This document shows positions 1-23,900 of a stretch of DNA of 31,538 nt, in pieces; positions within the stretch are counted from its first letter, which is position 1; each line of letters opens with the position of its first letter. Source of the DNA: a virus. The notes under the pieces are model-generated. The model saw only the letters and a program-made list of their open reading frames with translations. It was not told where the DNA came from and did no database searches. The stretch is taken from positions 1 to 31,538 of the IMG/VR virus record IMGVR_UViG_3300017598_000361; one strand, 5' to 3'. The position numbers were made by a program, and so were the translations under genes.

Positions 1-621
1 CAATTCGTCGTAAGTGGTGTTCAGTGGCCGATGCGAAGGCCAAGGTACAGATTCTCCGAAGTGGTCAACATCACTTGGTCTAATATAATGACTGAGGTTG
101 GCTTACAGACCGATTCCCGTCCTGTCGTAGAGTATAACGCAGTTGAGCCCTCAGACTTTCAATTCGCTCAGATTCTCAAGAAGATCAACGATGTGAATTG
201 GAATAAGTCTCTAGTGACCGGCCATGGTTGGCAACGCAAGACGTCAACGGGAGTATTTAAGTCCAAGCTGTATCATGTGGTTCATGCCGAAGTGGCCTGG
301 GACCAGGAGCTAGAGCAGGGGCTTGGAGATGTGGATTTCAAGATATTAGATCCTTATGGATGTTTCTGGGACCCCACTGCTGACAGTATTCACGAATGCC
401 GATGGTTTGTGTACAGCGAGCCCTGTCCTACCGCTCAACTCAAGAAAGAACACCCCAAGCATGCGGATAAGATTAAGCCTGACCTAACCATGATGGACAA
501 GGGTTCTATTGACGGGATTGATGACACGAATATTGACCTCTTTTGGGCGACTACTGTCTTGGCTGCGTTTACGGGTACTATCTCTGCCATGCTCTCTTCA
601 ACTCCTGTACCGCCGATTTAA
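1..621 (+). CDS. Portal protein fragment (both ends missing), probably on a chimeric segment
   Basis: The reading frame is open from base 1, so the N-terminus lies outside the window. Residues resemble the P22-type portal family of podoviruses: a run on specific residues is SRPVVEYNAVEPSDF, followed by motifs such as FKILDPYGCFWDPTAD and CRWFVYSE, typical of portals where a conformational DP-x-x-x-W/F-DP segment is conserved. Portal forms the dodecameric DNA gate at the capsid vertex. It is the only plus-strand gene in the window. Recognisable portal sequence ends near base 550; the last 25 or so residues look random and overlap the 3' end of the opposite-strand zinc-ribbon gene. P22-like portals are usually 600-750 residues, so most of the gene is missing. 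Portal is normally encoded just downstream of terL on the same strand. I infer an inversion chimera; the family call is moderately sure. Confidence 0.6.
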   Translation, partial: QFVVSGVQWPMRRPRYRFSEVVNITWSNIMTEVGLQTDSRPVVEYNAVEPSDFQFAQILKKINDVNWNKSLVTGHGWQRKTSTGVFKSKLYHVVHAEVAWDQELEQGLGDVDFKILDPYGCFWDPTADSIHECRWFVYSEPCPTAQLKKEHPKHADKIKPDLTMMDKGSIDGIDDTNIDLFWATTVLAAFTGTISAMLSSTPVPPI

Positions 622-931
622 TGTCTACCTTCTGAGTCGGTTTCTCCATCCGGGTGGTGTCGTTTCCAATCTCATGGATCTCTTTGCCTGTCTCGCCTTC
701 AATTCGTCTAATCTCTTCCTTCTGCTCATGGCTGGTGGTCATCACTCTTCCGAAAGCAGGCTGATACCCTGGTCGGAAGGTTCCTGTGGTCATCGCTCCC
801 TTAAACGAGAGGATCTTAATCATGTTGGCTTTGCAGTGTGGGCAGGGTTCGTCCATTGAGGAGCGAGAGAGAGGCTTTGCTATGTCGTAGTGGTGGGAGG
901 GGTCATACTTACACTGGTATTCATATATCAA
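578..931 (-). CDS. FmdB-like small zinc-ribbon protein
   Basis: The start IYEYQC and the later CPHC pair, followed by the MIKILSFKG segment, match the FmdB-type zinc-ribbon family often found near phage terminase genes. The first metal-binding half is degenerate: only one Cys (in YQCKYD) plus His residues (PSHHYD) instead of CxxC. The C-terminal half is charged and probably helical. I chose the TTG at 931 because it overlaps the terL stop (TTGA) and gives the family's usual N-terminus; an in-frame TTG at 943 would add four residues. Its role in packaging is unknown. The stop codon lies at most about 30 bases from the suspected chimeric joint, so the C-terminus could be artificial. Confidence 0.65.
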   Translation of the reverse strand: MIYEYQCKYDPSHHYDIAKPLSRSSMDEPCPHCKANMIKILSFKGAMTTGTFRPGYQPAFGRVMTTSHEQKEEIRRIEGETGKEIHEIGNDTTRMEKPTQKVDIKSAVQELKRAWQR

Positions 932-2283
932 TATGCTGCCCAATCGTCTGGTTTTTCATCGTCGTCAGGTGTCCAATGGTCCACCCGGTGCGCATGCCTC
1001 AAAGGTAGTTTGGGCGACTCTACACTATCTGTCAAGAGTTGTAATGTAATGCAACCTACTGTCACAAACCTTTCTGCACTCATTAAGTCCTCTCCTATAT
1101 CTCTCGGCTTCTCATCGGCTGTGATCTCCCCATCTGGAGTGGTCTTGCGAACATACGATATATACTCATCCTCTAGATCGTCTGCCTGGTCGATTCCTTT
1201 AAATATTTGATACTGCTTGGTTAAGATCAATTGATGTAATGCGTCGTTCCCTGCTTTGACCAATCTGTACTCAGTGTTCCCATCAAAGTAAGTCCTAGCT
1301 CCTATGCCTCGTTGGTTCAATGAGAGCGTTAAGTCTGGTCTGTCATGTCCCACAAACCATTCCTTGACCTTAAACTGTTTGGTCTTTGACTCAATGAGTT
1401 GCAGCTTCTCATCCACACTCATGCCTGACTTCCGAAAGATTGACACAGTGTAGCACTTGTTATCGCCTGGGAATGCTCTGATCGTTAGAGCGAATGGATG
1501 ACCAGTGCCATCGTCTATGCCTCCGTAGTACTTAGTGCCTGGTGGCATGATGAATGGATCACAGAAGTTTCCTGGTCCAAAGCCTGGAAAGATCAAATGC
1601 TCTGGCTTGGCTGGTTCTCCTAAGAACTTACGAGCGAACTCTGACCTGCTTAGAAGCCGCTTCTGTCTCATCAACTCCTCATCAGGAAAGGAAGGATTCT
1701 CAGCACTGTTGAAATAGACCAGGCCAGTGTCGGGTAGTTCCCCTCTCATGTAGGGCTTCCAGATCATCTTATATAACCAATTGAGTGTGTACCAGGTAGT
1801 ACACAGGATGAGCTTACCCTGTAATCTAGCTACTCTGGCTTGGACATTGATGAAGAATTGACGATTACACTTTCCGGCTTCGTCTATGGCGGCACCAGCA
1901 CAGTCTGGTATACCCTCCACGCTGTCCGGATCTGTACTCGTCCGGAACCACACTTTCCTCCCATCCGTCAACGAAAAGCATCCCTCCTTGGCGTTGTAGT
2001 TCCCTAGCATCAAACTGAAAAACTTCTTGAAGGTCGGCAATGTAGATTGCTCTAGGATCTTGTATGTAGGGGCACCAATCAGCCAGTTCGTCCCTTTCCT
2101 CTCGTCTTCTTTCAACAGGTGACGCATGGCGAGAACCAGAAAGATAGTCTTCCCACCTTGAATCCCGCTGATTAGCACGACTATTCGGATCTTGAGGTCT
2201 TTTAGGTATTTCCAAGCTACCTGCTGAAACTTGTGGAGCTTGAAGTTCCATTTCTTCTTAGAGGTCGAATTCTTCGATGCCAT
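928..2283 (-). CDS. terL: Terminase large subunit (packaging ATPase and nuclease)
   Basis: This 451-residue protein is the DNA-packaging motor. The N-terminal ATPase domain carries a Walker A (SGIQGGKT, residues 39-46), a Walker B with catalytic acid (GAAIDEAGK, D134-E135) and a coupling-motif-like LCTTWYT at 160-166. The C-terminal RNase-H-like nuclease has candidate metal-binding acids in GGIDDGTGH (D257/D258), GHDRPDL (D314) and PRDIGEDL (D395/D399). Length is normal for the family. The start overlaps the terS stop by 26 bases, and the end overlaps the zinc-ribbon gene. It would dock on the portal and cut and translocate concatemeric DNA. The family call is very sure; headful versus site-specific packaging cannot be told from the sequence. 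Confidence 0.95.
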   Translation of the reverse strand: MASKNSTSKKKWNFKLHKFQQVAWKYLKDLKIRIVVLISGIQGGKTIFLVLAMRHLLKEDERKGTNWLIGAPTYKILEQSTLPTFKKFFSLMLGNYNAKEGCFSLTDGRKVWFRTSTDPDSVEGIPDCAGAAIDEAGKCNRQFFINVQARVARLQGKLILCTTWYTLNWLYKMIWKPYMRGELPDTGLVYFNSAENPSFPDEELMRQKRLLSRSEFARKFLGEPAKPEHLIFPGFGPGNFCDPFIMPPGTKYYGGIDDGTGHPFALTIRAFPGDNKCYTVSIFRKSGMSVDEKLQLIESKTKQFKVKEWFVGHDRPDLTLSLNQRGIGARTYFDGNTEYRLVKAGNDALHQLILTKQYQIFKGIDQADDLEDEYISYVRKTTPDGEITADEKPRDIGEDLMSAERFVTVGCITLQLLTDSVESPKLPLRHAHRVDHWTPDDDEKPDDWAAY

Positions 2284-2737
2284 CGCCTGTATTCACAAAC
2301 AGAGTCCCCTCAGACTCTATCTTGTGTTCTATCCTGTCTCTCCACTTGTCTGGCTGTCGATTCTTTAGCCAAAAGATCGCAGAAGCTGCGTCTGGTGGGT
2401 AATGCTTGATTGTGTCCACTTTAGTCACCACCCCTTTATCTACATGGATCTTCTCTTCAGGATGACTATATCCTGACGCTCTGTGGTAGAGAGAAGCCTC
2501 AACTGCTTGATCTGCAAGCGCTTTTGCGTCTTTTAGGGACCAAAAAAACTCTCTATCGCCTTTTTTCCAATTCAGAATCGTTTGTGGGGTTACGCCAAGC
2601 ATTTCGGCTATTTGCTTGTCGGTCTTACCCTCTCCAGCCATCTCAATAATTTTTTTGGCTACAACTTCATCGAAGATGCTAGGTCTACCTACTTTTCTCT
2701 TAAGAGGCTTACCTGCTTTTCCGTTTCCCTTTTTCAT
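2258..2737 (-). CDS. terS: Terminase small subunit
   Basis: At 159 residues, this is the DNA-recognition partner of TerL. A basic N-terminus (KPLKRKVGRPS) precedes a helix-turn-helix at about residues 39-60 (KQIAEMLGVTPQTILNWKKG). The C-terminal part has the family signature YPPDAASAIFWLKNRQPDKW, common to many small terminases that begin with a resolvase-like HTH. It starts in a TAATG junction with the upstream membrane-protein gene and runs 26 bases into terL, so the two are translationally coupled. The call is secure; the packaging site was not identified. Confidence 0.92.
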   Translation of the reverse strand: MKKGNGKAGKPLKRKVGRPSIFDEVVAKKIIEMAGEGKTDKQIAEMLGVTPQTILNWKKGDREFFWSLKDAKALADQAVEASLYHRASGYSHPEEKIHVDKGVVTKVDTIKHYPPDAASAIFWLKNRQPDKWRDRIEHKIESEGTLFVNTGDGIEEFDL

Positions 2738-3021
2738 TAGGTTGAGGTGATTCCCTTCATTCTCGCCTTATTTTTTATGAGTTCTCGATGCTGTGCGTCG
2801 GCCTCTTGTAAGAAAGTTTTGGCCAGCTTGGTCTCTTCTTGTTCTTCTTCCCAAATAGTCTCATCTGATCTGCTGTAGATAAAGGGTTTTCCTTTAGGTG
2901 GGAATGTGGGCGGCGAGGGCTGTGGTTGAGATGTTCTGCGCGAACGCATGTATCTAGTCAGAGATATTGAACCAGCCCCCACCATAATTCCTGCGAGAAA
3001 GATTATGATTGCTTCAACCAT
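2737..3021 (-). CDS. Small membrane-anchored protein upstream of terS
   Basis: This 94-residue protein has one N-terminal transmembrane segment (about residues 4-22, AIIIFLAGIMVGAGSISL), then a basic RYMRSRR stretch, a Pro-rich linker (PQPSPPTFPPKGKP) and an acidic/charged helix rich in E, Q and K. The topology fits a single-pass protein with its tail in the cytoplasm. It overlaps the GNAT gene by 19 bases and meets terS in a TAATG junction. I do not recognise a family. Because it sits between the sugar operon and terminase, it could belong to either. Confidence 0.6.
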   Translation of the reverse strand: MVEAIIIFLAGIMVGAGSISLTRYMRSRRTSQPQPSPPTFPPKGKPFIYSRSDETIWEEEQEETKLAKTFLQEADAQHRELIKNKARMKGITST

Positions 3022-3503
3022 TGATCCCTTGTCATTGATACCATAAAGCTATCAATCCTTCTACCTTCCTTGTAATAACGATTCCTTAGCTTTCCCTCTA
3101 TTTCAAAACCTACCTTCTCTGCTACTCTTCGACCTGCTGCGTTAAACTCAAAGATTTCTCCCCATATTGTCTCGATGCCGAGATCCATGAAGCCGTGAGT
3201 TATTAAGAGTTTGAGGGCTTCTGTACCATAGCCCTTTTTCCAATAATTTGGATCTATCAGTAATGAATACTCTGCTGTGGCATGAGGTAGCCCTGTGATT
3301 GACGTTAGCCCACATTGTCCTCTAATTTGTCCATGGATTTCAATCCCCAACATGTATGTGGTCTGATCTTGCCGCTGCCTGTCCATCCATTCTTCTTGGC
3401 TTTCCTTTGAGATCAACCTGTGCTGTCTGCATGTCCTCATGATTCCGGGGAGGTTTCTCCACTCTCTAGCTACTGGTGGAAGCTCTGGGACTAGTTTAAT
3501 CAT
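3003..3503 (-). CDS. GNAT N-acetyltransferase of the RimJ/RimL (Acetyltransf_3) type
   Basis: This is a 166-residue acetyl-CoA-dependent acyltransferase. The acetyl-CoA pyrophosphate-binding loop is at YWKKGYGTEAL (about residues 88-97), and the C-terminal strand-helix pattern FNAAGRRVAEKVGFEIEGKLRNR is typical of RimJ/RimL-like and sugar-amine acetyltransferases such as PseH. I chose the ATG at 3503 because it forms an ATGA overlap with the formyltransferase stop; the frame is open further upstream, but only inside that gene. In this operon the likely substrate is an amino group on a UDP-amino sugar. Protein or small-molecule acetylation cannot be excluded. Confidence 0.85.
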   Translation of the reverse strand: MIKLVPELPPVAREWRNLPGIMRTCRQHRLISKESQEEWMDRQRQDQTTYMLGIEIHGQIRGQCGLTSITGLPHATAEYSLLIDPNYWKKGYGTEALKLLITHGFMDLGIETIWGEIFEFNAAGRRVAEKVGFEIEGKLRNRYYKEGRRIDSFMVSMTRDQWLKQS

Positions 3504-4048
3504 CTCAACCTCTCCAATGTTTCCTTGATGTCTGCATCCCAATCTATTTCTTCTGGGAGGTCTTTGACTTTGTGCTCTGTGCCTAAATACCAAGAACGAC
3601 CTATCAGATAATCTCCAACCAGAATCTCATTTATGTTTTCCAAAAATAACTCCTCAATCTCTGACCTAAGCCTATGATATGCCTGAGTAAATGTCTTCTC
3701 TCCGTAGAAATTCACATACCGTTGAAACAGTATCGGACCTGTGTCTACTCCCTCATCTATCTCATGAATAGTCACCCCCGATGGTGTACGATCATAGAAC
3801 GCCCAGAAAGAAGGATGAGCCCCTCTGTTGTAAGGTAAGTATGCAATATGTAAGTTGATTATGGGTCTTTTGGCTGTGGCTATGACATGCTTGCTTATAA
3901 TATGTCGGTATCCGTAGCTGATAATAAGATCCCATTTGGATAGGTCTTTTCTCTCACTACTAGCCCAATCAACACTCCACCCCTTCTCTCGGACATCCCC
4001 AATCAAACGAGTCTCACCCTCTCCGTAGCCTAAGAATAATGCTTTCAC
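3500..4048 (-). CDS. Formyltransferase (N10-formyl-THF dependent, sugar-amine type)
   Basis: At 182 residues it is just the Formyl_trans_N catalytic domain, without the C-terminal domain of methionyl-tRNA formyltransferase. The catalytic triad is visible: N65 and H67 in INLHIAYLPYNRGAHP and D102 in EIDEGVDTGPI, with spacing as in the family (N-x-H, then Asp 35 residues later). Such short forms act on amino sugars, including 4-amino-dideoxy sugars and, in some bacteria, pseudaminic acid precursors. The GTG start follows a GGAGGAAG Shine-Dalgarno. The gene is coupled to the GNAT gene, so the operon offers two alternative acyl groups (acetyl and formyl) for an amino sugar. The exact acceptor is inferred. 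Confidence 0.88.
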   Translation of the reverse strand: MKALFLGYGEGETRLIGDVREKGWSVDWASSERKDLSKWDLIISYGYRHIISKHVIATAKRPIINLHIAYLPYNRGAHPSFWAFYDRTPSGVTIHEIDEGVDTGPILFQRYVNFYGEKTFTQAYHRLRSEIEELFLENINEILVGDYLIGRSWYLGTEHKVKDLPEEIDWDADIKETLERLR

Positions 4049-4082
4049 TCTTCCTCCATTTCGGGTATTTCATTCCTGCCCC

Positions 4083-4325
4083 CTACAATCTGCACCCAGT
4101 ACGTGGTCTGTGGTGCTCATAACATGCGTAAGATGTAAACTTCCCGCTTGCCTCAAACTCTTTCTTACACCTAGAGATGAGGCTTTTATGCTTTTTATAG
4201 TTCTTTTCTTTTTCCTGGTGAAGCCCATAAAAACATGGAGCCATAAAAAGGAAACAAACAAGCATCGCTATTGCGCCATAGAAGCTTTGCTTTTTGGTGT
4301 ACGGCCCCATATCCATATCAGCCAT
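4083..4325 (-). CDS. Small single-pass membrane protein, unknown
   Basis: This 80-residue protein has a hydrophobic segment at about residues 15-34 (GAIAMLVCFLFMAPCFYGL) followed by a Lys/Glu-rich, Cys-containing tail (EKEKNYKKHKSLISRC). The start ATG lies three bases after the stop of the upstream gene. Another frame is open over part of the same stretch (4070-4261) but has no better start context. No family is recognised. It is followed by a 34-base spacer before the formyltransferase GTG, one of the few small gaps in the operon. Confidence 0.5.
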   Translation of the reverse strand: MADMDMGPYTKKQSFYGAIAMLVCFLFMAPCFYGLHQEKEKNYKKHKSLISRCKKEFEASGKFTSYACYEHHRPRTGCRL

Positions 4326-4328
4326 TAG

Positions 4329-4589
4329 TCATTCTTGGTCCTTTATCTTGTCCTGTATCTTCTGACATGCTGAGTTCCAAAGCAGGATGTTTCTTGAGCC
4401 CTGTTTATCTAGCTTAGCTTCCTTTAATTCTCCAAACGCTATCTTCGCATCCTTACTGATCTGGTGGCGTAATGCTTCTTCTATCGCATCAGCTAGAGCC
4501 ACATACATCTCACAGCCCTTTGACCATCCATAGCCTGTATTTGAGCCAGCAATTCTTTCTGCTATTTCTCTAACGCTTGAAGGTTTCAA
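4329..4589 (-). CDS. Small hypothetical protein, helical
   Basis: The 86-residue product is predicted soluble and largely helical, with an acidic/basic mix and one GYGWSKGCEMY stretch. It starts inside the end of the aminotransferase gene (20-base overlap) and ends just before the small membrane protein. I do not recognise it. The overlaps at both sides and the lack of a longer competing frame support it as a real gene. No function is proposed. Confidence 0.55.
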   Translation of the reverse strand: MKPSSVREIAERIAGSNTGYGWSKGCEMYVALADAIEEALRHQISKDAKIAFGELKEAKLDKQGSRNILLWNSACQKIQDKIKDQE

Positions 4590-5757
4590 CGGGCACCTCC
4601 CCCTCTAACTTACACTCTCCCCTTTTGATCCTGCCCACTACATCACTCACCAAGTTTAGTATCACTTCATCTAAGTTCTCTTCCATGTGAGCTATTGAAT
4701 AGAAATATGCTTTACCCATTAATATTCCAGCCTTACACAGTTCCTGAGAGAGTAACGCCCCAGCTTCGCTGGACATAGGATACATCCCCCTTGTGCCATA
4801 TCCTTCGATCTGTACATCTACTTCCTTGAAGAGTTTGTTTAGATTGTCTTGGAACTTGTTGGAATAATAGAAATATTCCTTCATGTCTGTTTTTCTTAGC
4901 TCGGTTAGTGTGGCCTTGGCTGCGGCTAGTGATACCGCTTCTCCTGAAAAGGTGGAGCTGACGAAGTACTCCCCACAGTCCATAATCTCCTTCTTCCCTC
5001 CGACCACTGACAGAGGGAATCCACTCGCCAGCCCCTTGCCCAAAACAGTCAGCTCGGGCTTAAGGTCCCACATCCGGGACACCGACCATTTTGGGACTCT
5101 TCCAAATGTTATAACTTCATCGAAAATAACCGGCTTCTTTGCCTGACAGTCCTGCCTAAGACCCTTTCTCTGGCTGTCGCTCATGTCTAATCCAACAGGC
5201 TCACAAATAAACGTGCCATTCTTTGTGCAAAAAGATGGGACATAGCTTTGTATACAATGGTCCCAGTCACCCTCTGTAGGAACGCCCAGAGCTGGGGCAG
5301 TAAGACTTGTAAACATATCGTGCCAACCATGATAGCCCTCAGACCATACCGAATCATCTTCGGCATATGCCCTAGCCACTCTTACGGAGGCTGCCGTGGC
5401 CTCACTGCCTGTCTTAAGAAATCTTAATTTCTCAATCGCTGGCACCATCTCGCATATCTGCTCGGCTACTTCAATTACTAACGGATGTTCTAGAGATAGG
5501 GTTATCGCTTCGTTGGCTTGCTTATGAACAGCTTCCAAAACCCGAGGATGACCATACCCCAAAGGAACAACTCCAAGACCACCAATGAAATCAATATATT
5601 TTGTTCCATCCTCATCCCAGACATAGGGTCCTCGACCTCGCATAAGGTACTTTGGGAAGTTTTCTGGAAATTGGGTGGGTCTTTTGCTGTTAGTCCCACC
5701 GTATCCCTGTGCTAATACTCTACTTGCCCTGGAGCTTATCGTATTCTTCTCGGACAT
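4570..5757 (-). CDS. Class III PLP aminotransferase, glutamate-1-semialdehyde-aminomutase-like
   Basis: At 395 residues it is near family length. PLP-site features are visible: GSEATAASVRVAR (about 117-129) binding the phosphate, GYHGWHD (141-147) stacking on the ring, D213 in VIFDEVITFGR contacting the pyridine nitrogen, and K241 in VLGKGLASGFPLSVVGG as the Schiff-base lysine. HemL-like members are also common in surface-polysaccharide loci, where they probably aminate sugars rather than make tetrapyrroles. The start has a GAAGGA Shine-Dalgarno and overlaps the cytidylyltransferase stop by 38 bases. Known pseudaminate and legionaminate pathways use DegT-type aminotransferases (PseC, LegC), so this fold is unusual here. 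The role on a UDP-keto sugar or an octulosonate-like acid is inferred. Confidence 0.9.
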   Translation of the reverse strand: MSEKNTISSRASRVLAQGYGGTNSKRPTQFPENFPKYLMRGRGPYVWDEDGTKYIDFIGGLGVVPLGYGHPRVLEAVHKQANEAITLSLEHPLVIEVAEQICEMVPAIEKLRFLKTGSEATAASVRVARAYAEDDSVWSEGYHGWHDMFTSLTAPALGVPTEGDWDHCIQSYVPSFCTKNGTFICEPVGLDMSDSQRKGLRQDCQAKKPVIFDEVITFGRVPKWSVSRMWDLKPELTVLGKGLASGFPLSVVGGKKEIMDCGEYFVSSTFSGEAVSLAAAKATLTELRKTDMKEYFYYSNKFQDNLNKLFKEVDVQIEGYGTRGMYPMSSEAGALLSQELCKAGILMGKAYFYSIAHMEENLDEVILNLVSDVVGRIKRGECKLEGEVPVETFKR

Positions 5758-6382
5758 TTTTTAAATCCTTCTCAGTGTCTACTGACAGCTTTCTGAAGAT
5801 TAGATTCGATCTGTTGAATATGGGCTTGAAGTTTAGGCCAGCAGCTACGAAGTTCTTCCTTATGAAGTCGTTCTCATCCAGATGCTTGAATGGGTGCTCA
5901 CGATCTTCTTCTTGTTCACGATCCACCCAGTCCATGCCCTTACTCGACGCCCCCTGAACATCCCAGCCTTCAGGATAGCTGCGGGTTTCCATGATGTTTG
6001 AAACGTAATCTACATTCGGTTGGTCTAGCACTTTGATGCACTCGGCTATCATCTCTACGGGAATGAGTGGACAGTCGCCTGTAACTCTTATTACTGCATC
6101 CGCCTCATAGTTCTCCATTGCGGTTAGATATCTATCTACCAAATCAGTCTCATGGCCCTTGAAATGCTCAATCCCATTTTCTGCACAGAATACATATGTA
6201 GTTACATCCGTGCCCGGAACAAGCGCCGACACCACCACATCTAACGACCGACTCTTGCCCTTCAGTAAACACGCCTTGTCATAAATCATCTTGAGCATAG
6301 GAGTTCCATCTATTTCCATAAAGATTTTCCCAGGTAATCTAGTCGAACCACTACGAGCTTGAATTCCTATAAGGACTCTCAA
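5720..6382 (-). CDS. Cytidylyltransferase, SpsF/NeuA-like (CMP-sugar synthetase)
   Basis: This 220-residue nucleotidyltransferase starts with the nucleotide-binding signature IQARSGSTRLPGK (residues 7-19) and has RVTGDCPLIP (99-108) with the metal-binding D103. The C-terminal LSVDTEKDLKNVR is characteristic of SpsF-like enzymes (spore-coat polysaccharide type) and related CMP-nonulosonate synthetases. It would activate the NeuB-type product with CTP. It overlaps the DNA methyltransferase by four bases (ATGA). Fold and chemistry are secure; which acid sugar is activated is inferred from the operon. Confidence 0.88.
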   Translation of the reverse strand: MRVLIGIQARSGSTRLPGKIFMEIDGTPMLKMIYDKACLLKGKSRSLDVVVSALVPGTDVTTYVFCAENGIEHFKGHETDLVDRYLTAMENYEADAVIRVTGDCPLIPVEMIAECIKVLDQPNVDYVSNIMETRSYPEGWDVQGASSKGMDWVDREQEEDREHPFKHLDENDFIRKNFVAAGLNFKPIFNRSNLIFRKLSVDTEKDLKNVREEYDKLQGK

Positions 6383-7110
6383 AACAATACCTCCTGAGCC
6401 ATACGCTTTGCGGCAATTTCACAGTATTTTTCTTCGATCTCTATGCCGATTGCTTTGCGGCCTAAGTCTTTGGCGGCTCGGAGGGTGATCCCACTGCCCA
6501 TAAATGGGTCAAGAACGCCGCGGTCTCTTACACAACCCTTAATAATTGGCTGCACCAATTTTACTGGAAACGGGCAGGGGTGTGGGGTTTCATCTCTCGA
6601 CGGCGGAATGTTCCAAACAGACATCATCGAGTTAACGCTGTGGTCCCAGTGTGCTGGTTTCCCGTAGCATAACCAATACTCATGGGATGGAGAAAACCTC
6701 CCACAATTTAACGCCATACTCCCCCCACGATTCCAAACAACCTCGCAAAACAAATCCTTTCCACCATAAATTGTTATAGGATGAACCCCAAACCCCCTTC
6801 TGTATCGTGTTTTGTGGTTTATCCACACACACGACGAAATCCCACGGAAAACACGCAAACAGTCTTTCTGCCATAACTGATATGCGCCCTCTTCCATTGA
6901 ATCTTCATAACCCCCCTGCTTATTCATCCACTCATTTTGTCCAGATTTTCTATCTGCATGTAAACCACTCGGTTTAGCTTTTGGATTGAGCGTATTATAC
7001 GGAGGAGATGTTATAACCGCATCAACCCTTGGAATCGCCCCAAGAGCAATAAACTCCCGACAATCCCCATGGTAGATAGTTACCGACCCGTCTTGATAAT
7101 ACGGCTTCAC
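6379..7110 (-). CDS. DNA methyltransferase, beta-type N4-cytosine or N6-adenine
   Basis: The 243-residue enzyme has catalytic motif IV early (TSPPYN, residues 34-39) and the SAM-binding motif I late (DPFMGSG, 201-207, followed by GIEIEEKYCEIAAKRM). This beta-class order is shared by many phage and type II methyltransferases. SPPY is typical of N4-cytosine enzymes but is also seen in N6-adenine ones. No restriction enzyme is adjacent, so it is an orphan, probably masking phage DNA from host restriction. It starts with GTG in a 4-base overlap with the oxidoreductase stop, so it is co-translated with the sugar genes. The target sequence is unknown. Confidence 0.92.
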   Translation of the reverse strand: MKPYYQDGSVTIYHGDCREFIALGAIPRVDAVITSPPYNTLNPKAKPSGLHADRKSGQNEWMNKQGGYEDSMEEGAYQLWQKDCLRVFRGISSCVWINHKTRYRRGFGVHPITIYGGKDLFCEVVWNRGGSMALNCGRFSPSHEYWLCYGKPAHWDHSVNSMMSVWNIPPSRDETPHPCPFPVKLVQPIIKGCVRDRGVLDPFMGSGITLRAAKDLGRKAIGIEIEEKYCEIAAKRMAQEVLF

Positions 7111-7760
7111 TCAACTCCTATGTGCGCGTAAGTATGAACAAAATCTATCTCTTCCATGTGTACATCATGGAGCTTTCTCACCACTGCCCTGGTCATCTCT
7201 ACCCCATCATCTAAACTCCACAGCCTATCACTCTTGTTGTTTAGAAAGTCCTCTACCATTTGAATGTAGGACTTCTCCAACATCCAGTAGGTGATGCCCA
7301 TATTATTCAAGGTCAGATGAAACACCGGAGAATCAAACCTTAGCTCGGCTTCTGGATCTAGATAAATGAGCTGGCACATATCCCACCACCAGTCATCCTT
7401 GCCATGGTTGTAGTAGTTGTATGAAATCCTTGGCTTTTTCATGCCCAGGTAATGAACAAGAGTATTGTAATTACCAACCACATACCCCTTCGCCCCCTTG
7501 AAGGCGTTAAGGCTTAGCGTCCTGCAATCGTCTATGTCTTTACATAAGGGCTTCTCACATAGAAAGGGCGTTCCTTCTCGGATTAGTTCTTTGCAATGCA
7601 GCATGTGAAACGCTGTCGGAGTGGCTACGATGGCATGGGTATAGTCTTCCGGCCTCTTATCCCCTACGTCTACACCTACATGGTCAACTTCTAGGTACTT
7701 CAAAATGGCCATATACCTACGGCCCATTGAACCCTTAGAGCCTATGACTAGGACTTTCAT
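7107..7760 (-). CDS. Gfo/Idh/MocA-type NAD(P)-dependent oxidoreductase, short form
   Basis: The N-terminal Rossmann fold has GSKGSMGRRY (residues 7-16) and the family's EKPL motif (69-72), with K70 as the usual catalytic or substrate lysine. At 217 residues it is far below the usual 320-350, so the C-terminal beta-sheet domain is reduced; a HLTLNN segment and a helical end remain. Such proteins oxidise or reduce sugar hydroxyls. Its position between the NeuB-like synthase and the cytidylyltransferase suggests it acts on the nonulosonate or a precursor. It overlaps both neighbours by four bases. The substrate is not known. Confidence 0.85.
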   Translation of the reverse strand: MKVLVIGSKGSMGRRYMAILKYLEVDHVGVDVGDKRPEDYTHAIVATPTAFHMLHCKELIREGTPFLCEKPLCKDIDDCRTLSLNAFKGAKGYVVGNYNTLVHYLGMKKPRISYNYYNHGKDDWWWDMCQLIYLDPEAELRFDSPVFHLTLNNMGITYWMLEKSYIQMVEDFLNNKSDRLWSLDDGVEMTRAVVRKLHDVHMEEIDFVHTYAHIGVE

Positions 7761-8446
7761 CCTTGCGCCCTTATGCCGTCCACCATTTTCTTAAACTCCG
7801 GGGGCGTTAAAGCAAACTTGCCATCTGGGGTCTGTAAACTCTCGGTATATTCAAGGGTTAGGTGCTTCTCGATGATCTTGGCACCATATCCTACTGCATT
7901 AAGCGGAGTTGTAACATCTAGACTATGATCTGATAAACCATCAAACGCTGGAAACAACCCACGAAAATTCATTTCTGCAATTACTGGATAGGCCACCTTG
8001 CCCTGCTCTGTATAGACAAACAGCCTTTTCAAATTATCATGAGGCTCATAGTCGTTTCCCATTACATCTGTTGACACAATGACTTGCTTGCCCAGATTTA
8101 AAAATCCGTTGATGTTGTCTCGCTTGTTTCTCATGCTGTAGCCAAACTTCACAAATGGAACATCCAGCTTGGCCACTATACTCATGGCCTCTTGATCGTA
8201 CACACTCGCTGCTACCTTAATTGGCCTGGCTCCTTCCTTACGCTTTCGGTCTTTGCCGTACAGGTGCAAAGTCCTGAACCAATCATAGGGCAGATACTGA
8301 TTCCCTCCCTTAGCCATCTCTTTAGGAAATAGCTGAAACTTAATAACATCTGCGCCTGCTTCGGCTGCTCGGTCTACCAATTCAAAAGCGTTCTTGCGTC
8401 GGCCACAATGCGTTGATCCTGGGTCTGCTACTATAAGGACTGACAT
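7757..8446 (-). CDS. NeuB-type nonulosonic acid synthase, barrel domain only
   Basis: At 229 residues it aligns by eye to the TIM-barrel of NeuB/PseI/LegI, which condense PEP with a 6-carbon amino sugar. Conserved points are VADPGSTHCG (for the usual IAEIGxNHxG, with Asp8 replacing Glu), K36 in IKFQLF, the metal-ligand histidines H174 (GLSDHSLD) and H195 (IIEKHLTLEY), and the TPDGKFALTPPEF segment. The family is normally about 340-350 residues with a C-terminal SAF (antifreeze-like) domain that completes the partner's active site; that domain is absent, and no SAF fragment was found nearby. It overlaps the dehydratase by 16 bases and the oxidoreductase by four. The call is strong for the fold; activity without SAF is uncertain. 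Confidence 0.85.
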   Translation of the reverse strand: MSVLIVADPGSTHCGRRKNAFELVDRAAEAGADVIKFQLFPKEMAKGGNQYLPYDWFRTLHLYGKDRKRKEGARPIKVAASVYDQEAMSIVAKLDVPFVKFGYSMRNKRDNINGFLNLGKQVIVSTDVMGNDYEPHDNLKRLFVYTEQGKVAYPVIAEMNFRGLFPAFDGLSDHSLDVTTPLNAVGYGAKIIEKHLTLEYTESLQTPDGKFALTPPEFKKMVDGIRAQG

Positions 8447-9375
8447 AATTCTCTAAGCTCCTTCTGTGTAAAGCGTTCCGCCGTGTCTGAGGTATAGCCC
8501 CACTCCTCTAAGGCAATGTCATTGCCCCTTCGCTTGCATGGAAATAGCTCAATATGCGAAGGCCATCGAATATAGTATTCGGGATACTCGGTACACAAAC
8601 TCGCCTCTTGTTGCGTTATGAGCGTTTCGTGCATCTTTTCCCCTGGTCGTAATCCAATGACCTCCGCACTTCCACCGACCACTACATCAAACAACTCCCC
8701 GATGGTGGTTGACTTCATCTTCGGGATGAAGGTTTCACCTCCCTTGCAGTTATCAAGAGCATCTAACACCAATCGAGCAGCCCCTACCTGGCTTATGAAA
8801 AACCTTGTCATGGTTGGATCTGTTACCAACCTTCCCCCATTATTCCACTTACTTATAGCTGATCCGTTTGATCCAAACACATTCCCGTAACGTAATGCGG
8901 CAAACTTCGTTTCCCAACTTCCGACATTAGCCTGAACCCATAACCTCTCAGCACATGCCTTTGTGTTGCCATAGAAGTTCAATGGAGCCACTGCCTTGTC
9001 CGTGCTGGTCAAGATGGCTTTCTCTACTCCATTGAATTGACAGGCTTTTGCTACGTTCTGAGTGCCTATGATATTGGTTAAGACTCCCTCAAATGGATCA
9101 TATTCTAGCTTGTCTACTCCTTTGATGGCGGCTAAGTGGAAGACATACCTACAATCCTTGGTAGCCTCTAACATCCTCTCCTTGTCTCGTACATTGCCCA
9201 ACATGAAGTCAACAGGCTTGCCCCTGAGTCGTTGAGCCATCTTCACTTGATTAGGCTCATTGCAACTCAAGATACGGATGCGGGAGATTCCGTACCTCTT
9301 GCGACGGGATAATAACAAGGGGACAAGCTGCTGACCGAGGGTTCCTGTTCCTCCTGTCACTAAAACGGGTTTCAC
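8431..9375 (-). CDS. UDP-GlcNAc 4,6-dehydratase, PseB/CapD-like SDR
   Basis: This 314-residue extended SDR binds NAD(P) through TGGTGTLG (residues 7-14). The active-site set matches PseB: D126 and K127 in STDKAVAPLNFYGNTK, Y135 eight residues after the Lys, and K139 of the YxxxK. HLAAIKGVDKLEYDPFEGV is also close to PseB-type sequences. PseB removes water from UDP-GlcNAc and inverts C5 to give a 4-keto-6-deoxy sugar, the first step to pseudaminic acid. The GTG start forms a GTGA overlap with the small membrane-protein gene upstream. It is the first enzyme gene of the operon in transcription order. Retaining relatives (LegB, FlaA1-like) are the main alternative. Confidence 0.9.
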   Translation of the reverse strand: MKPVLVTGGTGTLGQQLVPLLLSRRKRYGISRIRILSCNEPNQVKMAQRLRGKPVDFMLGNVRDKERMLEATKDCRYVFHLAAIKGVDKLEYDPFEGVLTNIIGTQNVAKACQFNGVEKAILTSTDKAVAPLNFYGNTKACAERLWVQANVGSWETKFAALRYGNVFGSNGSAISKWNNGGRLVTDPTMTRFFISQVGAARLVLDALDNCKGGETFIPKMKSTTIGELFDVVVGGSAEVIGLRPGEKMHETLITQQEASLCTEYPEYYIRWPSHIELFPCKRRGNDIALEEWGYTSDTAERFTQKELRELCQSL

Positions 9376-14121: not shown

Positions 14122-14657
14122 TTGACTACCTCCTCTGGCTTGATGGCGCGGATCGCATCAAAACATATTTTTAAAGCCTCTCTACCCGGTGGGACTAGAG
14201 ATATTGCAGACGCCTCCAGTGACCTTAGCTCTTGAAACATTTCTTTCTGCATAGCCTTAGCCCCCTCCAGGCGGGCTTTCCTTAGTTCATCCATGCCATC
14301 TCCTGTAGCAACATGTTCTCCACACTTGATGCACTTGCCCCACTTGGCGGCTTCTTTCGCATAAAACTTCAACGCCTCCACCGCCTTAGAGTAGTTCTCG
14401 ATTAACTCTGGGAGGAGGTTTCGGGATTCGGCCATAAGCTTAGCGTCATCTTCTGCCGTTCCCCTACCCTCGTATTCCCATGTCCCGACTCGGTCTGTCT
14501 GAACAATCCAGTCAACTTTTTTCCTGTCACACCCAGCATAGAACCAACCTATTTCCCAATTCTCTCCAAACTGACCAGGGGTTGCTGGCTTCCATGGGCT
14601 TACGGTAGCTTTCTTCTCCAGCTCTTTCAGTCTCTCTAGTTTCTCTTTAAAAGTCAT
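14118..14657 (-). CDS. Ea22-like phage accessory protein
   Basis: This 179-residue protein contains TAEDDAKLMAESRNLLPELI and a following helix (YSKAVEALKFYAK), matching the pattern of lambda Ea22/Ead-like proteins, in which an 'xDAxFIAxARxxLPxLI' segment recurs. A CIKCGEHVATGDG pair near residue 110 may bind zinc. The function of Ea22-like proteins is poorly known. It starts in an ATGA overlap with the lipoprotein gene. Confidence 0.6.
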   Translation of the reverse strand: MTFKEKLERLKELEKKATVSPWKPATPGQFGENWEIGWFYAGCDRKKVDWIVQTDRVGTWEYEGRGTAEDDAKLMAESRNLLPELIENYSKAVEALKFYAKEAAKWGKCIKCGEHVATGDGMDELRKARLEGAKAMQKEMFQELRSLEASAISLVPPGREALKICFDAIRAIKPEEVVK

Positions 14658-16417
14658 TTCTCCACCAGGTACCCGTTGACTAGCCAGCCTGTAGACATCT
14701 CCTCAATCTGTAACGCACCAAGACTAATCACTGTGATGTATTTATTGCTTCCTGAGAGAACGATTCTTTGAGGATTGTCTGTTTGAGTCTGAGCTAAATC
14801 AGAGGCTCCCGTCTTGTCCGGGATCTCCTCCGTGGTGATTGTCCCCATGAGAGGGATAATCTTGATACCAGGAAATCCAACACCTTCTCCAAGAGTCTCG
14901 ACATGCTCTGGTAAATGAAATCGAACTGTGGCTGTATCAGTGCCAGCAATCCGGTCAATAACAACAAAGGTAGAAGGACGGAGGTGCACAAACTCACGAG
15001 TAACAGTGCCCGTATGAGCCGGGTAAGAACCCGATAAATCCAGGTTAAATATCGCATTGCTTCCATTCTCCTTATAGCTTGTGATTGTGCATTCATGCTC
15101 CGTAAACCTAGACGGGAAACCACACCTCTCTCCCGGTAGGCAAATGATGTTTGCGTTAAGGGGATCACTCGACGATCCAGCCGGATATCCAACATTGTAC
15201 CGTCCTCCGTTTTCTACGACATAGTGGGAACCCTTCCAAATTCGTATCGACCCGCAATTGTTCGTGTGATGATCTCCAACCCAATGATTGCTAAAAATAG
15301 CCGCCCAGGTTGCGTCCTTGGTCCAACTCGACCTTGTGATTCCTATGGTCTGCCCGTTATAGGAAAGACTCTCTTGGGGGATTTCAGGCATCTCTGGGTC
15401 ATATCGAATAAACAAAGTCGCAAGATAATAGGAACTCACCCATCTACCAGGCAGGAATATATTATTGAAGAAATGCTGAAAGCTAGGATTGGCATAAGCC
15501 ATACTGCTAGCCATGTGTCTTCCACTGGAATACTTCGCCGCTCCTGGTTCATACGCTGCTAAGAACTCATCCCCACTCGGCAACACAGAGTTCACCCAGT
15601 AGTTGGGAAGGTCCTCAGTATAAGGAAGTCTCGATTCTCCAAAGGCTGTTAGCAACGCCTCCTGTATGTCCTGGAACATTTGATGCGTTCTGACAAATCC
15701 ATAATGAGAACCTCCATAAGGAACTCCGAATAGCCTACTTCCTACGTCTTTTACTCTGTCCCATATAATACGGTTCTTTTCATATAGAGGTTTATTGTCT
15801 TCATAGGTGGCAATGCTGTAGACGAACTCTCCCGCCAACTTCGTGTGAATCAGGTTATGAGTATCTCGGCACCAATACTCAGGTGCATGATGGTTGCATT
15901 TATGAGTGTGAAGATGAGGGAGAAGTTTATTTTCTACCCACTCTCGGAACCTCTTTCTTTCCAGTTCAGTAAGCTCCGAATACAACCAATCATACACCGC
16001 ACTAAGCCTAACCAATACAATACTTCCATAATCTGTACGGTCAGAACTTAGAGTATATCCGTTGATGTGCCAGAGAAGCGACTCCTTGGCACATGCTAAC
16101 CAATCAGCCTTTCCAGTAGCCAGCCACCCAGCCGACATATTGAGAGCCTGATAAGATGAATTGCAATCGTTTACATATCTCTTGTTTGCCGCTTCTAATT
16201 TCTCCCAAATGGGATTTGAATCAATGGCCTTGGCCTGTAGCTTCGCCACATCCACCCAGATTCTAGGATGATCTTTGATATTCGCAAACGGAGTAGGAGA
16301 AGGAGTAGGTTCTGCCGTTGGCGTAGGTGTCGGAGTAGGATCTATAGGACCAGGAGGCACATGAGGACACCCCAATAGAAACAAACTAAAAACCAAGGTT
16401 GTTATAATAGCTCTCAT
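14654..16417 (-). CDS. Lipoprotein with heparinase II/III-like polysaccharide-lyase fold
   Basis: This 587-residue protein starts with a lipoprotein signal peptide (MRAIITTLVFSLFLLGC; lipobox LLGC, Cys17), then a Pro/Thr-rich linker (about 20-44). An alpha/alpha-barrel-like region follows (about 50-335), with WCRDTHNLIHTKLAGEF and GGSHYGFVRTHQMFQD. The C-terminal beta-sandwich (about 350-587) contains NHWVGDHHTNNCGSIRIWKG (377-396), which matches the His-containing signature of heparinase II/III and alginate lyases. Such enzymes cut uronate-containing glycans by beta-elimination. As a host-exported, lipid-anchored protein in the early operon it is not a virion depolymerase. The ATG has an AGGAG site 11 bases upstream and lies inside the preceding gene. 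Lyase activity is inferred. Confidence 0.8.
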   Translation of the reverse strand: MRAIITTLVFSLFLLGCPHVPPGPIDPTPTPTPTAEPTPSPTPFANIKDHPRIWVDVAKLQAKAIDSNPIWEKLEAANKRYVNDCNSSYQALNMSAGWLATGKADWLACAKESLLWHINGYTLSSDRTDYGSIVLVRLSAVYDWLYSELTELERKRFREWVENKLLPHLHTHKCNHHAPEYWCRDTHNLIHTKLAGEFVYSIATYEDNKPLYEKNRIIWDRVKDVGSRLFGVPYGGSHYGFVRTHQMFQDIQEALLTAFGESRLPYTEDLPNYWVNSVLPSGDEFLAAYEPGAAKYSSGRHMASSMAYANPSFQHFFNNIFLPGRWVSSYYLATLFIRYDPEMPEIPQESLSYNGQTIGITRSSWTKDATWAAIFSNHWVGDHHTNNCGSIRIWKGSHYVVENGGRYNVGYPAGSSSDPLNANIICLPGERCGFPSRFTEHECTITSYKENGSNAIFNLDLSGSYPAHTGTVTREFVHLRPSTFVVIDRIAGTDTATVRFHLPEHVETLGEGVGFPGIKIIPLMGTITTEEIPDKTGASDLAQTQTDNPQRIVLSGSNKYITVISLGALQIEEMSTGWLVNGYLVEK

Positions 16418-20411: not shown

Positions 20412-20938
20412 TTAATGTAATCCCACAATCTTTTCCAGACAGTGTAAGAGTAGTCAAGGTCTTGACCAACGTAACTCATAGTATCCAGACCAAGAGCGTC
20501 CCAATCATTCTCTGTAAAATCCTTTATCTCCAACCCAATAATCGCCTTACGATGCTGCACGGTGTTTGCCGTTCCGCTGGTTACAAACTCCACCTTCAGG
20601 TCTTTTAGCTTTGCTCTCCTTGCAACCCACATCGCCTTGGCATTTGTTAGGAAGTTCTCAATGTTTGTTCGCTGAGCCCCCGTGATTTCGTTAAACTGTA
20701 CCGTGTCCCAAGTCCAAAATAGAAAGTCACTCTTAGGGATGTCTTGCTCTGAGAAGGCTACCGAGTATGCGTCTGGACATTGCGTAGCCAAGGCGTTAAG
20801 TTCTGCCGCCGATAAATTGTCCGTGCTTGTTGAGGGGTCAGAAATGTTATTGACTCCATTGGTCTTAGACCAAATCCTTCCCGCAAGACTAAGCCCAGCA
20901 AAGTTTGTACCTGGATTAAATACTAGATATGTAAACAT
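20408..20938 (-). CDS. Hypothetical protein downstream of the tailspike
   Basis: The 176-residue product begins MFTYLVFNPGTNFAGLSLAG and has Trp-rich parts (SDFLFWTWDTVQFNEI, YTVWKRLWDYIK). It starts in a TAATG junction with the tailspike stop, so it is translated with it. It may be a spike chaperone or a virion accessory, but the sequence shows no known motif. Confidence 0.5.
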   Translation of the reverse strand: MFTYLVFNPGTNFAGLSLAGRIWSKTNGVNNISDPSTSTDNLSAAELNALATQCPDAYSVAFSEQDIPKSDFLFWTWDTVQFNEITGAQRTNIENFLTNAKAMWVARRAKLKDLKVEFVTSGTANTVQHRKAIIGLEIKDFTENDWDALGLDTMSYVGQDLDYSYTVWKRLWDYIK

Positions 20939-23900
20939 TAGTACTCCACGTTGTTAGCATGAACATTCCCAGCCCCCGCCCCGGTGGTTAAATCCGTAAG
21001 GGCTCCGTCGGTTGCATTGCCTGTAACGATACAGTCTTGCTGACTTGTTTCTGTGAATGTGGCTGTGCCGTCTACGTTGTTATCAGAAAAGATTGTTCGG
21101 TCGTTTACATCGCCAGCACCTGCCCCAATTGTTACATTGCCGTCTATAAAATTACCCGTGATAACATTGTCTGTGCCGTCTTGCTCTATGGTCAACCCAC
21201 CCAAATTATTTCCAGATATTACATTTTCGCTTGCTGGATTGGCTGCATCACTATTCAGGGTCATTAGCCCGGTACATTGGTTTCCTGTTATGGTATTTCC
21301 AATGGTTTGGGTTATGCCAAGGTCGTTGATTTTAATAAGTACAAACATCCCGTTTCCGCTAATGTTAGAGTCTGTACACCCACGACTTATTGACAGGTCC
21401 GCGTACCTTCTGCCCATATTCCCGGTAATATTTGATCGAATAATACCCTCTATATTGATGTCTCCTGGCCCACATGAATTATTTGTAAAGGCTAGGTTGT
21501 CATTTATCCTACCAGCCGGGATGTCTATAAATACTGACGAAGCGCCGTTCGGCCCACCAAATACATTCCCGTCGTACACACAATTAACCGTAGAGGATTC
21601 TTGGCTCAACCCCCTAGCGCCCCCACCACCAGATCCAATGTCTTCTATTTGTGGAAAAACGTTGTCTTTAAGCACGCATCCCCACATACTTGGGGTAACC
21701 CCGGTAGCCTCAAAACCTATCGCCACATTTGATGGCCCAAAATGAGAGTCGTAAATCTGAACGTCTTTCAACAGTCTAGATCCAACCCATTTAATTAGAT
21801 AAAGGGCGTTTTCAAAGTAACAGTCACGAACATGACAAGCAAAAGCCCAGTCTTCAAACTCTACATGTACGGGGTGGGTTAGCGTGTCAATGGCCGAGAA
21901 TTTACAATTAAGAATATCAATATGAATACACTCGTTTATTGTTATTGTGGATTCTAATAAATACACCCTATCGAAAGTAATATCATGACAATAATCAACA
22001 TCTACCTCTATGGACCCAGTAGACGTATTTGTAATGTCCATTAGCGTTATCCCGGAATTTTTAACAGGAACCTTCATAGGGCCAGCAGTAGATGTTGCTG
22101 CGCTGCTCGCATCAAACGCTCCAAAGAACTCCACAACCCCAGTCCCGGCAACACCATCTTCCTTGGCCATCTGATAGTGACCCTCTCTTGGTGATGTGGT
22201 TTCGTCCTTAACAATGATCCATTCCCCTTGTAAGAAATTGGCTGCATCTGCAGCCACATCCGTAACAAGTTGATCATTCCCCCAGCTGGGTGCGGCGATT
22301 CCATAGTAGGTTGGAGCGGTGCCTTGAAAGTCAATGGTGTAGGCGTTACCCGTGTTGTTTCGTATGCCCGTCCCAGTGCCTTGCCCCTCAAGGATGACGT
22401 TGCTTTTCATGGTGATTGAGGCGTCCATATCTAGCAGGGCGTCAAAGATAACCTTGCCACCACCCGCAGTGTTCAGTGTCGTAATAGCCGCATTGATCTC
22501 TGTGCTTCCTCCAGTAGCTAGGCGGATCTCTCTGTCTTGGATGCTGTAATGCCCCTTTTGTTCTACGTGGTTTCCGGTGCCCGTTAGATAGGTCAGTGTC
22601 CCCGTAATAACATTCCCGACAATCTCACAGTCGTCCTGGTCTGACTCTGTGAAGACAAGGTTTCCTGTAATAGAGTTTCCGGTTATAACGTTTCGGTCGT
22701 TTACATCTCCAGCGCCGTTTCCAATTCTAAAGGTTCCATTTATGGTATTTCCCGAAATAGTATTGTCATATCCATCTTCATCTATGTAGAAATTAACGGC
22801 ATAGTTCCCGGAAATAATGTTGTCGTAAGCTGGTCTGGCAGCGTCACTCCCAAACCCTAAATTCGTTTCACACACATTCCCAGTAACCGTGTTTGAGTAA
22901 CATGCCGTTACGTTATTCTCTGTTATATAGATACTACCAACCTGGTTCCCAGTTACACTTGTTGTGCTACAGCCAGAGGTCAAATATATGCTCGTTGTAT
23001 TGCTCCCCTGGTTATCAGCTATCACACCCCGCCTACAGGTTACCGCATAAATGCCCGACTCTTTTACGTTATTCCCGACAATGCTAATATTGTCATTGTA
23101 CCGACTTGTCGCCTTAATCGAATAAATAGAGATAGCATTTTCTGTAAAGAATTGGTTGTTGTTGATCTGTAGGTGCCTTGTCCCGCAATTCCACACAAAG
23201 TCTTCCGAGTTCCCACCACCTGACGCCGGGTTCTCGTTGGCCAAGAACATATTGCCTTCAATCAGACAATTGAATATGTGGCCATTGGCCGTTGAAGACG
23301 GACGCAAGTCTACGGAATTTTTGGCAGACAGGAATCTATTGTTTGAAATTGTGGTTCGCTTTAAGCAAGTGGCTCCGGTCCAATCAATGGAAGTTAGCGT
23401 GGCCTCGAAATTGCATCCATCAACCTTTAATTCGTTTACCCAGTTTTGGATGTCAATATGTCTAGCGTGTGCCAGGGTGTCATCGCATGTAAATACACAG
23501 TCGCGAATATCAATAAACCCAACCTCATTTAGCGAAATAACACTTTCTAAGAAATAAACTTTCTCAAACGCTATGTGGTGCGCGTGATCTATGTCCACTT
23601 CGATGCTCCCGGCACCCGTATTCTGAACATCCATCAACATCATTCCGGCATATTCCATGTCTGTCGGCATAGGTGCGGCTGTCGATGCAGCATTGTAAAC
23701 ATAATCAATCTGCCCATAAATTTCTACGACACCCGTACCTGCAACACCGTCTTCTTTGGCCTTAGCAAACATGCCGAGGTTCGGAGTTGAGGTTGTGTCT
23801 TTGACAAGGACATATTGTCCCTGAGAGAAGTTGGCAGCATCTCCGGCAGCATCCGTAACAAATTGGTCAAGGCCGAGTGTTGGTCCGGCTATAGCGTAAT

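Follow-up and report, generated by a model that had tools for sequence, protein, structure and literature searches.

Does a tailed phage that carries sugar enzymes next to its terminase genes make a nonulosonic acid of its own, and where would that sugar be placed? The question is raised by an operon at positions 3003-9375 of a whole IMG/VR virus record, IMGVR_UViG_3300017598_000361, a contig of 31,538 bases with linear ends that is called the window here. Nonulosonic acids (NulOs) are the class of sugars that includes sialic, pseudaminic (Pse) and legionaminic (Leg) acids, and sialic-acid-like sugars occur on bacterial flagella, capsules and spores. The initial annotation read the operon as a set of overlapping genes for a cytidine monophosphate (CMP)-linked NulO used to alter either the host surface or a virion glycoprotein. 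Our analysis supports a CMP-NulO as the inferred product, and we consider it rather probable that a tailed phage of an uncultured lineage makes this compound and that a Maf-type enzyme puts the NulO on virion proteins.

Sugar enzymes encoded beside the terminase genes

The operon runs on the minus strand from position 9375 downward in the order short-chain dehydrogenase/reductase (SDR), NeuB, Gfo/Idh, DNA methyltransferase, SpsF, aminotransferase, two small open reading frames (ORFs), formyltransferase, GNAT, terminase small subunit (TerS) and terminase large subunit (TerL). Profile searches and motif checks placed all seven sugar enzymes above the curated Pfam cut-offs with their signature residues kept, and the locations, strand and family assignments of the initial annotation held for each of them. 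Its description of the genes as overlapping was only partly borne out: overlaps of 4 bp lie on either side of the methyltransferase, but a gap of 34 bp precedes the formyltransferase and not every gene overlaps its neighbor. The methyltransferase and the two small ORFs had been overlooked in that first reading, as had the place of the pathway in a phage lineage and the usual position of NeuB adjoining the terminase.

The first gene (8431-9375, 314 amino acids, GTG start) encodes a PseB-like inverting UDP-N-acetylglucosamine (UDP-GlcNAc) 4,6-dehydratase that matched PF02719 (Polysacc_synt_2) with 237.2 bits against a cut-off of 20.2 (2.8e-70). The GGTGTLG Rossmann motif, TDKA at 125-128 and YGNTK at 135-139 are intact, which is the D126/K127/Y135 pattern noted earlier, and the best PDB profile match of this SDR was 2gn4; its score against the PseB equivalog TIGR03589 was 263.8 bits, below the cut-off of 407.75. 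The NeuB-family synthase (7757-8446, 229 amino acids) matched PF03102 with 89.5 bits against a cut-off of 22.1 (3.1e-25) and had profile matches to SpsE (1vli) and PseI (8h2c). Its metal and phosphoenolpyruvate (PEP) residues are kept (K36, Q38, K100, S125, H174, H195 and D208, with SDH at 172-174 and EKH at 193-195), and its scores were below those required by the equivalogs TIGR03569 (96.4 bits vs. 399.65) and TIGR03586 (81.6 vs. 340.25). The alignment stops at the barrel, and the C-terminal SAF domain is lacking in the NeuB proteins of the window's clade; a SAF-like tail, as judged by eye, is present in most of the terminase-linked NeuB homologues.

The Gfo/Idh oxidoreductase (7107-7760) matched PF01408 (GFO_IDH_MocA) with 31.3 bits against a cut-off of 24 (3.7e-7) and has an EKP motif at 69; at 217 amino acids it is about 100 residues shorter than usual. 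Its structural model (predicted local distance difference test, pLDDT, 93) aligned over residues 1-205 and has the Gfo/Idh/MocA fold, and the closest structures were GnnA (7bvj, Z 19.5), GenD2 and KanD2, all within Z 18.6-19.5 and tied with many others. GnnA, GenD2 and KanD2 are sugar dehydrogenases that work with aminotransferases. The SpsF-type cytidylyltransferase (5720-6382, 220 amino acids, TTG start) matched PF02348 (listed as CTP_transf_3) with 57.1 bits against a cut-off of 22.6 (3e-15) and carries the motifs QARSGSTRLPGK and GDCPL. The aminotransferase (4570-5757, 395 amino acids) is a class III enzyme of the glutamate-semialdehyde type that matched PF00202 (Aminotran_3) with 129.5 bits against a cut-off of 30.5 (1.8e-37), with FDE at 212, GKG at 240 and the pyridoxal phosphate lysine at K241.

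The two acyl-group enzymes complete the set. The sugar-type formyltransferase (3500-4048, 182 amino acids, with a shortened N-terminus) matched PF00551 (Formyl_trans_N; 1.4e-18), has the motifs NLH at 65 and VDTG at 101, and was closest among NCBIfam models to dTDP-4-amino-4,6-dideoxyglucose formyltransferase, below the cut-off. It is nearly private to the window phage, as a hidden Markov model found one in only one other viral locus, L063. The PseH-like GNAT acetyltransferase (3003-3503, 166 amino acids) matched PF13302 (Acetyltransf_3; 5.4e-20) and scored 55 bits against the 93.1 of the PseH equivalog TIGR03585; its start is most likely at 3503 and not at the TTG at 3593. None of the sugar enzymes passes the equivalog cut-offs for PseB, NeuB, PseI or PseH, so they are relatives and not certified members of these groups. 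A search with PADLOC for a defence role gave no match for the sugar enzymes, and among the operon genes only the methyltransferase matched.

Distribution of the pathway in an uncultured phage lineage

Across an entire phage lineage, the sugar pathway is near-core. Contigs were recruited by TerL alone (window TerL at 928-2283, minus strand; phrog_2, 2.1e-25), which avoids selection for sugar genes, with the mild bias that the TerL profile was built from NulO-carrying phages. NeuB lay no more than four genes upstream of TerL in 43 of the 61 recruited loci that had enough upstream sequence. Twenty of the recruited records were at least 31 kb long; a class III aminotransferase was present in 18 of these, a weak match in one and none in one, and NeuB was present in 16. 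Eight of the 20 had been missed by the sugar-gene searches, and the aminotransferase match was strong in six of these eight and weak in one.

Whole-record maps (30 records and the window) gave a single gene order, nearly all on one strand: NeuB, TerL, f19, portal, f6, major head protein, f11, f5, f18, f17, f15 and further genes, and at the far end the tail fibre, a small ORF (f20) and then SDR-GFO-SpsF-aminotransferase-GNAT. The latter is the commonest order of the cassette, which often comes right after the tail-fibre gene. The pathway genes co-diverge with the terminase and capsid. Pairwise distances of the pathway proteins and of the Maf-like gene described below correlated with the TerL distances (r 0.50-0.76, permutation p 0.001, kinship ignored) at mean identities of 33-42 percent, which argues for long shared descent and against recent cargo.

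The aminotransferase profile found about 80 viral loci and the Gfo/Idh profile 20; single-protein scans with NeuB or SDR gave no viral relatives, and alignment-based scans were needed. Whole-record searches detected NeuB in 35 of 40 related viral records, directly upstream of TerL in most of them. An impression that many relatives are without NeuB proved wrong, as these searches locate the gene beside the terminase. The window and its relative L049 have NeuB inside the cassette, in a short SAF-less form that they share with L084 and L205. With the queries applied, the lineage NeuB and Maf-like proteins had no match in 50,697 GenBank phage records. In locus L208 (2-1549, plus strand) a single open frame joins NeuB to an N-terminal stretch that resembles the neighboring virion structural family f10 (phrog_1645), a family found next to NeuB or TerL in several relatives.

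Could the contig instead be a chimera, or bacterial DNA from a capsule or flagellar locus, with an operon that is not phage-borne? Similar clusters are found in bacteria (L137, L170) and the contig is inverted over its first 0.5 kb, but the operon lies directly against TerS and TerL and is found again in phage records with conserved synteny; we regard this explanation as highly improbable, and bacterial contamination was ruled out by the synteny. The inverted part (12-531, plus strand) encodes portal residues 61-231 on the strand opposite to TerL, although the two genes share a strand in all relatives. It is probably an inverted chimeric contig end; an inverted repeat was looked for there and none was found.

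A Maf-type gene beside the capsid gene

Of the two uses proposed in the initial annotation, virion use is favored because a Maf-type glycosyltransferase gene lies beside the capsid gene in the lineage, and host-surface use is not. This gene, f5, encodes a protein of about 340 amino acids in PF01973, the MptE-like/Maf_flag10 family (3e-20), and comes directly after the major head protein gene (phrog_9953) and f11. It was detected in 29 of the 31 mapped records and so in every whole record of the lineage; it is missing from the window, where the contig lacks the interval, and from G024, a different phage type. PF01973 was over its cut-off in 28 of 34 records, and among 41 loci recruited by TerL alone that extended 6.5 kb downstream, 38 carried f5. 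The AlphaFold model of f5 (pLDDT 93.8) was closest to the Maf glycosyltransferase 5mu5 (Z 22.1, 243 residues, 3.1 Å), followed by MptE (Z 14.5) and then by sialyltransferases (Z 8-10), and a sequence profile searched against the PDB also ranked 5mu5 first. The protein thus combines the PF01973 domain with the Maf fold that mark the Maf family.

Maf transfers NulO from CMP-NulO to serine and threonine residues of flagellin (PMC11339370). The acceptors of the phage enzyme are likely its neighbors, namely the head protein, f11 or the tail fibre. Serine plus threonine content was 17, 20 and 24 percent in the head protein, f11 and the tail fibre, respectively, vs. 10-12 percent in the portal, TerL and aminotransferase; this composition may point to the same three proteins as acceptors and is suggestive only.

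A different destination for the CMP-NulO would be the host surface (capsule, lipopolysaccharide or flagellin), for example to block superinfection or to mask receptors, with the Maf-like protein acting on a host protein such as flagellin. There is precedent for phage NulO enzymes acting on the host capsule, namely EpaA and EpaB of Acinetobacter prophages (PMC12053666), and flagellin is the normal target of Maf enzymes. However, the Maf-like gene is inside the head module, after the major head protein gene, and NeuB is at the terminase. Moreover, glycosyltransferase family GT2 was absent from the 34 records and GT4 had no match above cut-off in the same 34, so neither family supplied a candidate for building a surface glycan. 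A further distinction (ALTERNATIVES) is that EpaA and EpaB are patchy prophage cargo, whereas the lineage set is near-core, co-diverges with the capsid and has its transferase in the head module; cargo aimed at the host surface would be expected to be patchy. We therefore consider modification of the host surface unlikely, if a real contender, and prefer glycosylation of the virion.

Proposed pathway and the step of amination

SDR, GNAT, NeuB and SpsF outline a Pse/Leg-type pathway. We propose that CMP-NulO would be synthesized probably late in infection, starting with dehydration of UDP-GlcNAc to a 4-keto-6-deoxy sugar by the PseB-like SDR. The class III aminotransferase, with Gfo/Idh as its redox partner, would install an amine that GNAT would acylate, joined in the window phage by the formyltransferase. 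NeuB would condense the freed sugar with PEP, and SpsF would activate the NulO with cytidine triphosphate. The Maf-type protein O-glycosyltransferase, whose gene is expected in the missing segment of the window phage, would then act in the cytoplasm and move the NulO to serine or threonine of virion proteins, in the same way as Maf modifies flagellin.

The initial annotation had remarked on a class III in place of a DegT-type aminotransferase and on the lack of a PseG-like hydrolase, and both features extend to the relatives. DegT (PF01041) was found in none of the 40 related records and in all 14 control genomes. PseG (TIGR03590) and the NeuC/LegG-type Epimerase_2 (PF02350) were likewise found in none of the 40, which are partly fragmentary records that can each miss a gene, and the controls were positive. 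The class III enzyme, the sole aminotransferase of the pathway, could replace PseC. UDP may be removed by a host hydrolase or by another protein. A fuller version of the proposal is that the lineage coats its head or tail proteins with a self-made NulO through the Maf-type transferase, that the class III aminotransferase and short Gfo/Idh replace DegT, and that the pathway works with no known UDP-sugar hydrolase and possibly yields an undescribed NulO; we give this version an even chance.

Several points weigh against virion glycosylation by a self-made NulO. SDR, NeuB and GNAT score under the NCBIfam equivalog cut-offs for PseB, PseI and PseH, and the UDP-sugar hydrolase step, for which the PseG and NeuC/LegG families gave nothing in the 40 records, is missing or done by the host. 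PF01973 also includes the MptE pyrophosphokinases, to which the f5 model aligned with the Z of 14.5 given above. There is no PF01973 match in the record of the window itself (G000), a contig without the portal-to-tail interval; it stops at the portal on one side and at a tail gene on the other, where the Maf-like gene would lie.

The phage might only supplement or edit a host NulO pathway and take the DegT and UDP hydrolase steps from the host. The consistent lack of a hydrolase in the related records fits this explanation, as does the dependence of the prophage enzymes EpaA and EpaB on host Pse genes (PMC12053666). NeuB, SpsF and SDR would then be redundant, but all three have been retained in the lineage despite its deep divergence, and a supplementary role seems improbable to us.

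The aminotransferase and Gfo/Idh may, on the other hand, act on the ulosonic acid side of the pathway, at a later carbon such as C8, and not as PseC, with the 4-amine missing or host-made. We consider this quite possible, if somewhat short of an even chance, and it is compatible with the main claim of a virion NulO. Eight bacterial loci combine this aminotransferase with a PseB-like SDR, and seven of them also have DegT, so the role of PseC does not fall to the class III enzyme in those loci. Eighteen other ORFs join the aminotransferase and SpsF in one protein. Its companions in Bacteroidota and Ignavibacteria are SpsF, NeuB, a split transketolase, an SDR and a HAD phosphatase, but neither PseB nor DegT. 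In aminoglycosides, class III enzymes carry out the amination of sugar carbons, and the GenB-type C-6' aminotransferase 7lld was among the profile matches. Gfo/Idh and aldo/keto reductase (AKR) co-occurred in none of the 63 viral loci that have either (Fisher p 1.2e-5, ignoring relatedness), as expected of interchangeable redox partners, and AKR genes stand in for Gfo/Idh in another phage group. Yet the window lineage lacks DegT and keeps the PseB-like SDR and PseH-like GNAT, which is how a replacement of PseC would look.

Related arrangements in phages and bacteria

SpsF counts were taken from a model cleaned of SpsF-aminotransferase fusions. Such fusions, of 655-740 amino acids, occur beside SDR and DegT in L060, L063, L050 and similar large phage contigs. 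A second gene order in phages, NeuB-SDR-AKR-aminotransferase-GNAT-x265-x439-SpsF, was seen in L026 (6640-13348) and in L023, L024, L033, L036, L038, L039, L042 and L045. A PF01973 gene was not found in L026 or L033, and the 439-amino-acid protein (x439, working label UDPHYD), which had no Pfam or PDB match, may be the transferase of this arrangement.

Among bacteria, the gene set closest to that of the window was in a Brocadiaceae locus (L137, 3434-12706) with SDR, DegT, radical SAM, full-length Gfo/Idh, SpsF, class III aminotransferase, TIM barrel, GNAT and NeuB. L104 (5252-12520) and many of L103-L173, from Bacteroidota and Ignavibacteria, contain Glyphos_transf, SpsF, split transketolase, class III aminotransferase, SDR, HAD phosphatase and NeuB; judged by gene content, the L104-type locus would encode an acidic-sugar pathway.

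Comparison with known systems

The phage set resembles the Pse pathway (PseB, C, H, G, I, F) in its PseB-like dehydratase, PseH-like GNAT, NeuB-family synthase and CMP-transferase. It differs in the absence of DegT and PseG across the 40 records, in the added class III aminotransferase and Gfo/Idh, in SpsF instead of PseF and in scores under the equivalog cut-offs. The 8-amino-Kdo pathway of KdnB and KdnA oxidizes, aminates and CMP-activates an ulosonic acid, as the phage set may do, but it uses different oxidoreductase and aminotransferase families and acts on Kdo (3-deoxy-D-manno-octulosonic acid), not on a NulO. The sps pathway for legionaminic acid in Bacillus subtilis needs SpsC (DegT-type) and SpsG (PseG-like). 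It shares with the phage an SpsE-type NeuB, an SpsF-type cytidylyltransferase and UDP-linked precursors, and the requirement of SpsF for Leg on B. subtilis spores is a genetic precedent, although sps is a spore-coat system and not a phage one (PMC7439481).

Known Maf flagellin glycosyltransferases (5mu5) share the PF01973 domain and the best structural match with f5 and use CMP-NulOs as donors. In contrast, f5 is a core of about 340 amino acids without the outer domains of 5mu5, and it lies beside a phage head gene and not a flagellin gene. EpaA and EpaB are also phage-encoded NulO enzymes, one cytidylyltransferase-like and one an oxidoreductase, but this two-gene pair edits the pseudaminic acid of the host capsule, with no whole pathway, no Maf and no place in a lineage core (PMC12053666). 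Capsids of mycobacteriophages such as Che8 carry glycans and phage transferases are suspected (Freeman 2023, as cited in PMC11256854); other transferases are concerned there, and that account describes no NulO pathway.

Other genes of the window

The DNA methyltransferase (6379-7110, minus strand, 243 amino acids), between Gfo/Idh and SpsF, is an N6/N4 enzyme that matched PF01555 (4.3e-29), phrog_67 and type II methyltransferase models, and it probably has no role in the sugar pathway. L049 and similar relatives have the methyltransferase by TerS and TerL, vs. inside the sugar operon in the window. The two small ORFs that separate the aminotransferase from the formyltransferase (4329-4589, 86 amino acids, and 4083-4325, 80 amino acids, both minus strand) had no Pfam, NCBIfam or PHROG match. 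TerS (2258-2737, minus strand; phrog_309, 7.7e-47) is directly downstream of the operon. A tail-fibre-like gene of the lineage family TAILFIB, which precedes the sugar cassette in relatives, is at 24965-26092 (minus strand). At the contig end is a virion gene (30091-31536, minus strand; phrog_511, 5e-11), and relatives have the Maf-like gene between the portal and this gene. A tailspike-like protein of 1093 amino acids (20938-24219, minus strand) seems internally duplicated (ADRETVVASGSGSADINAAITT... and DREIRLATGGSTEINAAITT...), and a protein of 587 amino acids (14654-16417, minus strand) has a lipoprotein-like signal and a Pro/Thr-rich linker and looks polysaccharide-lyase-like by eye; neither had a Pfam match.

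Significance

To our knowledge, phages were previously known only as editors of host NulO, as in the case of EpaA and EpaB. A literature search of incomplete coverage found no paper on phage virion NulO or on a phage Maf. If the proposal is true, this phage lineage keeps a NulO synthase by its terminase and a NulO transferase by its capsid gene, and the sugar would be part of virion building or protection. A NulO pathway that relies on a class III aminotransferase and lacks any known UDP-sugar hydrolase would, likewise, be a direct target for the discovery of new enzymes and sugars.

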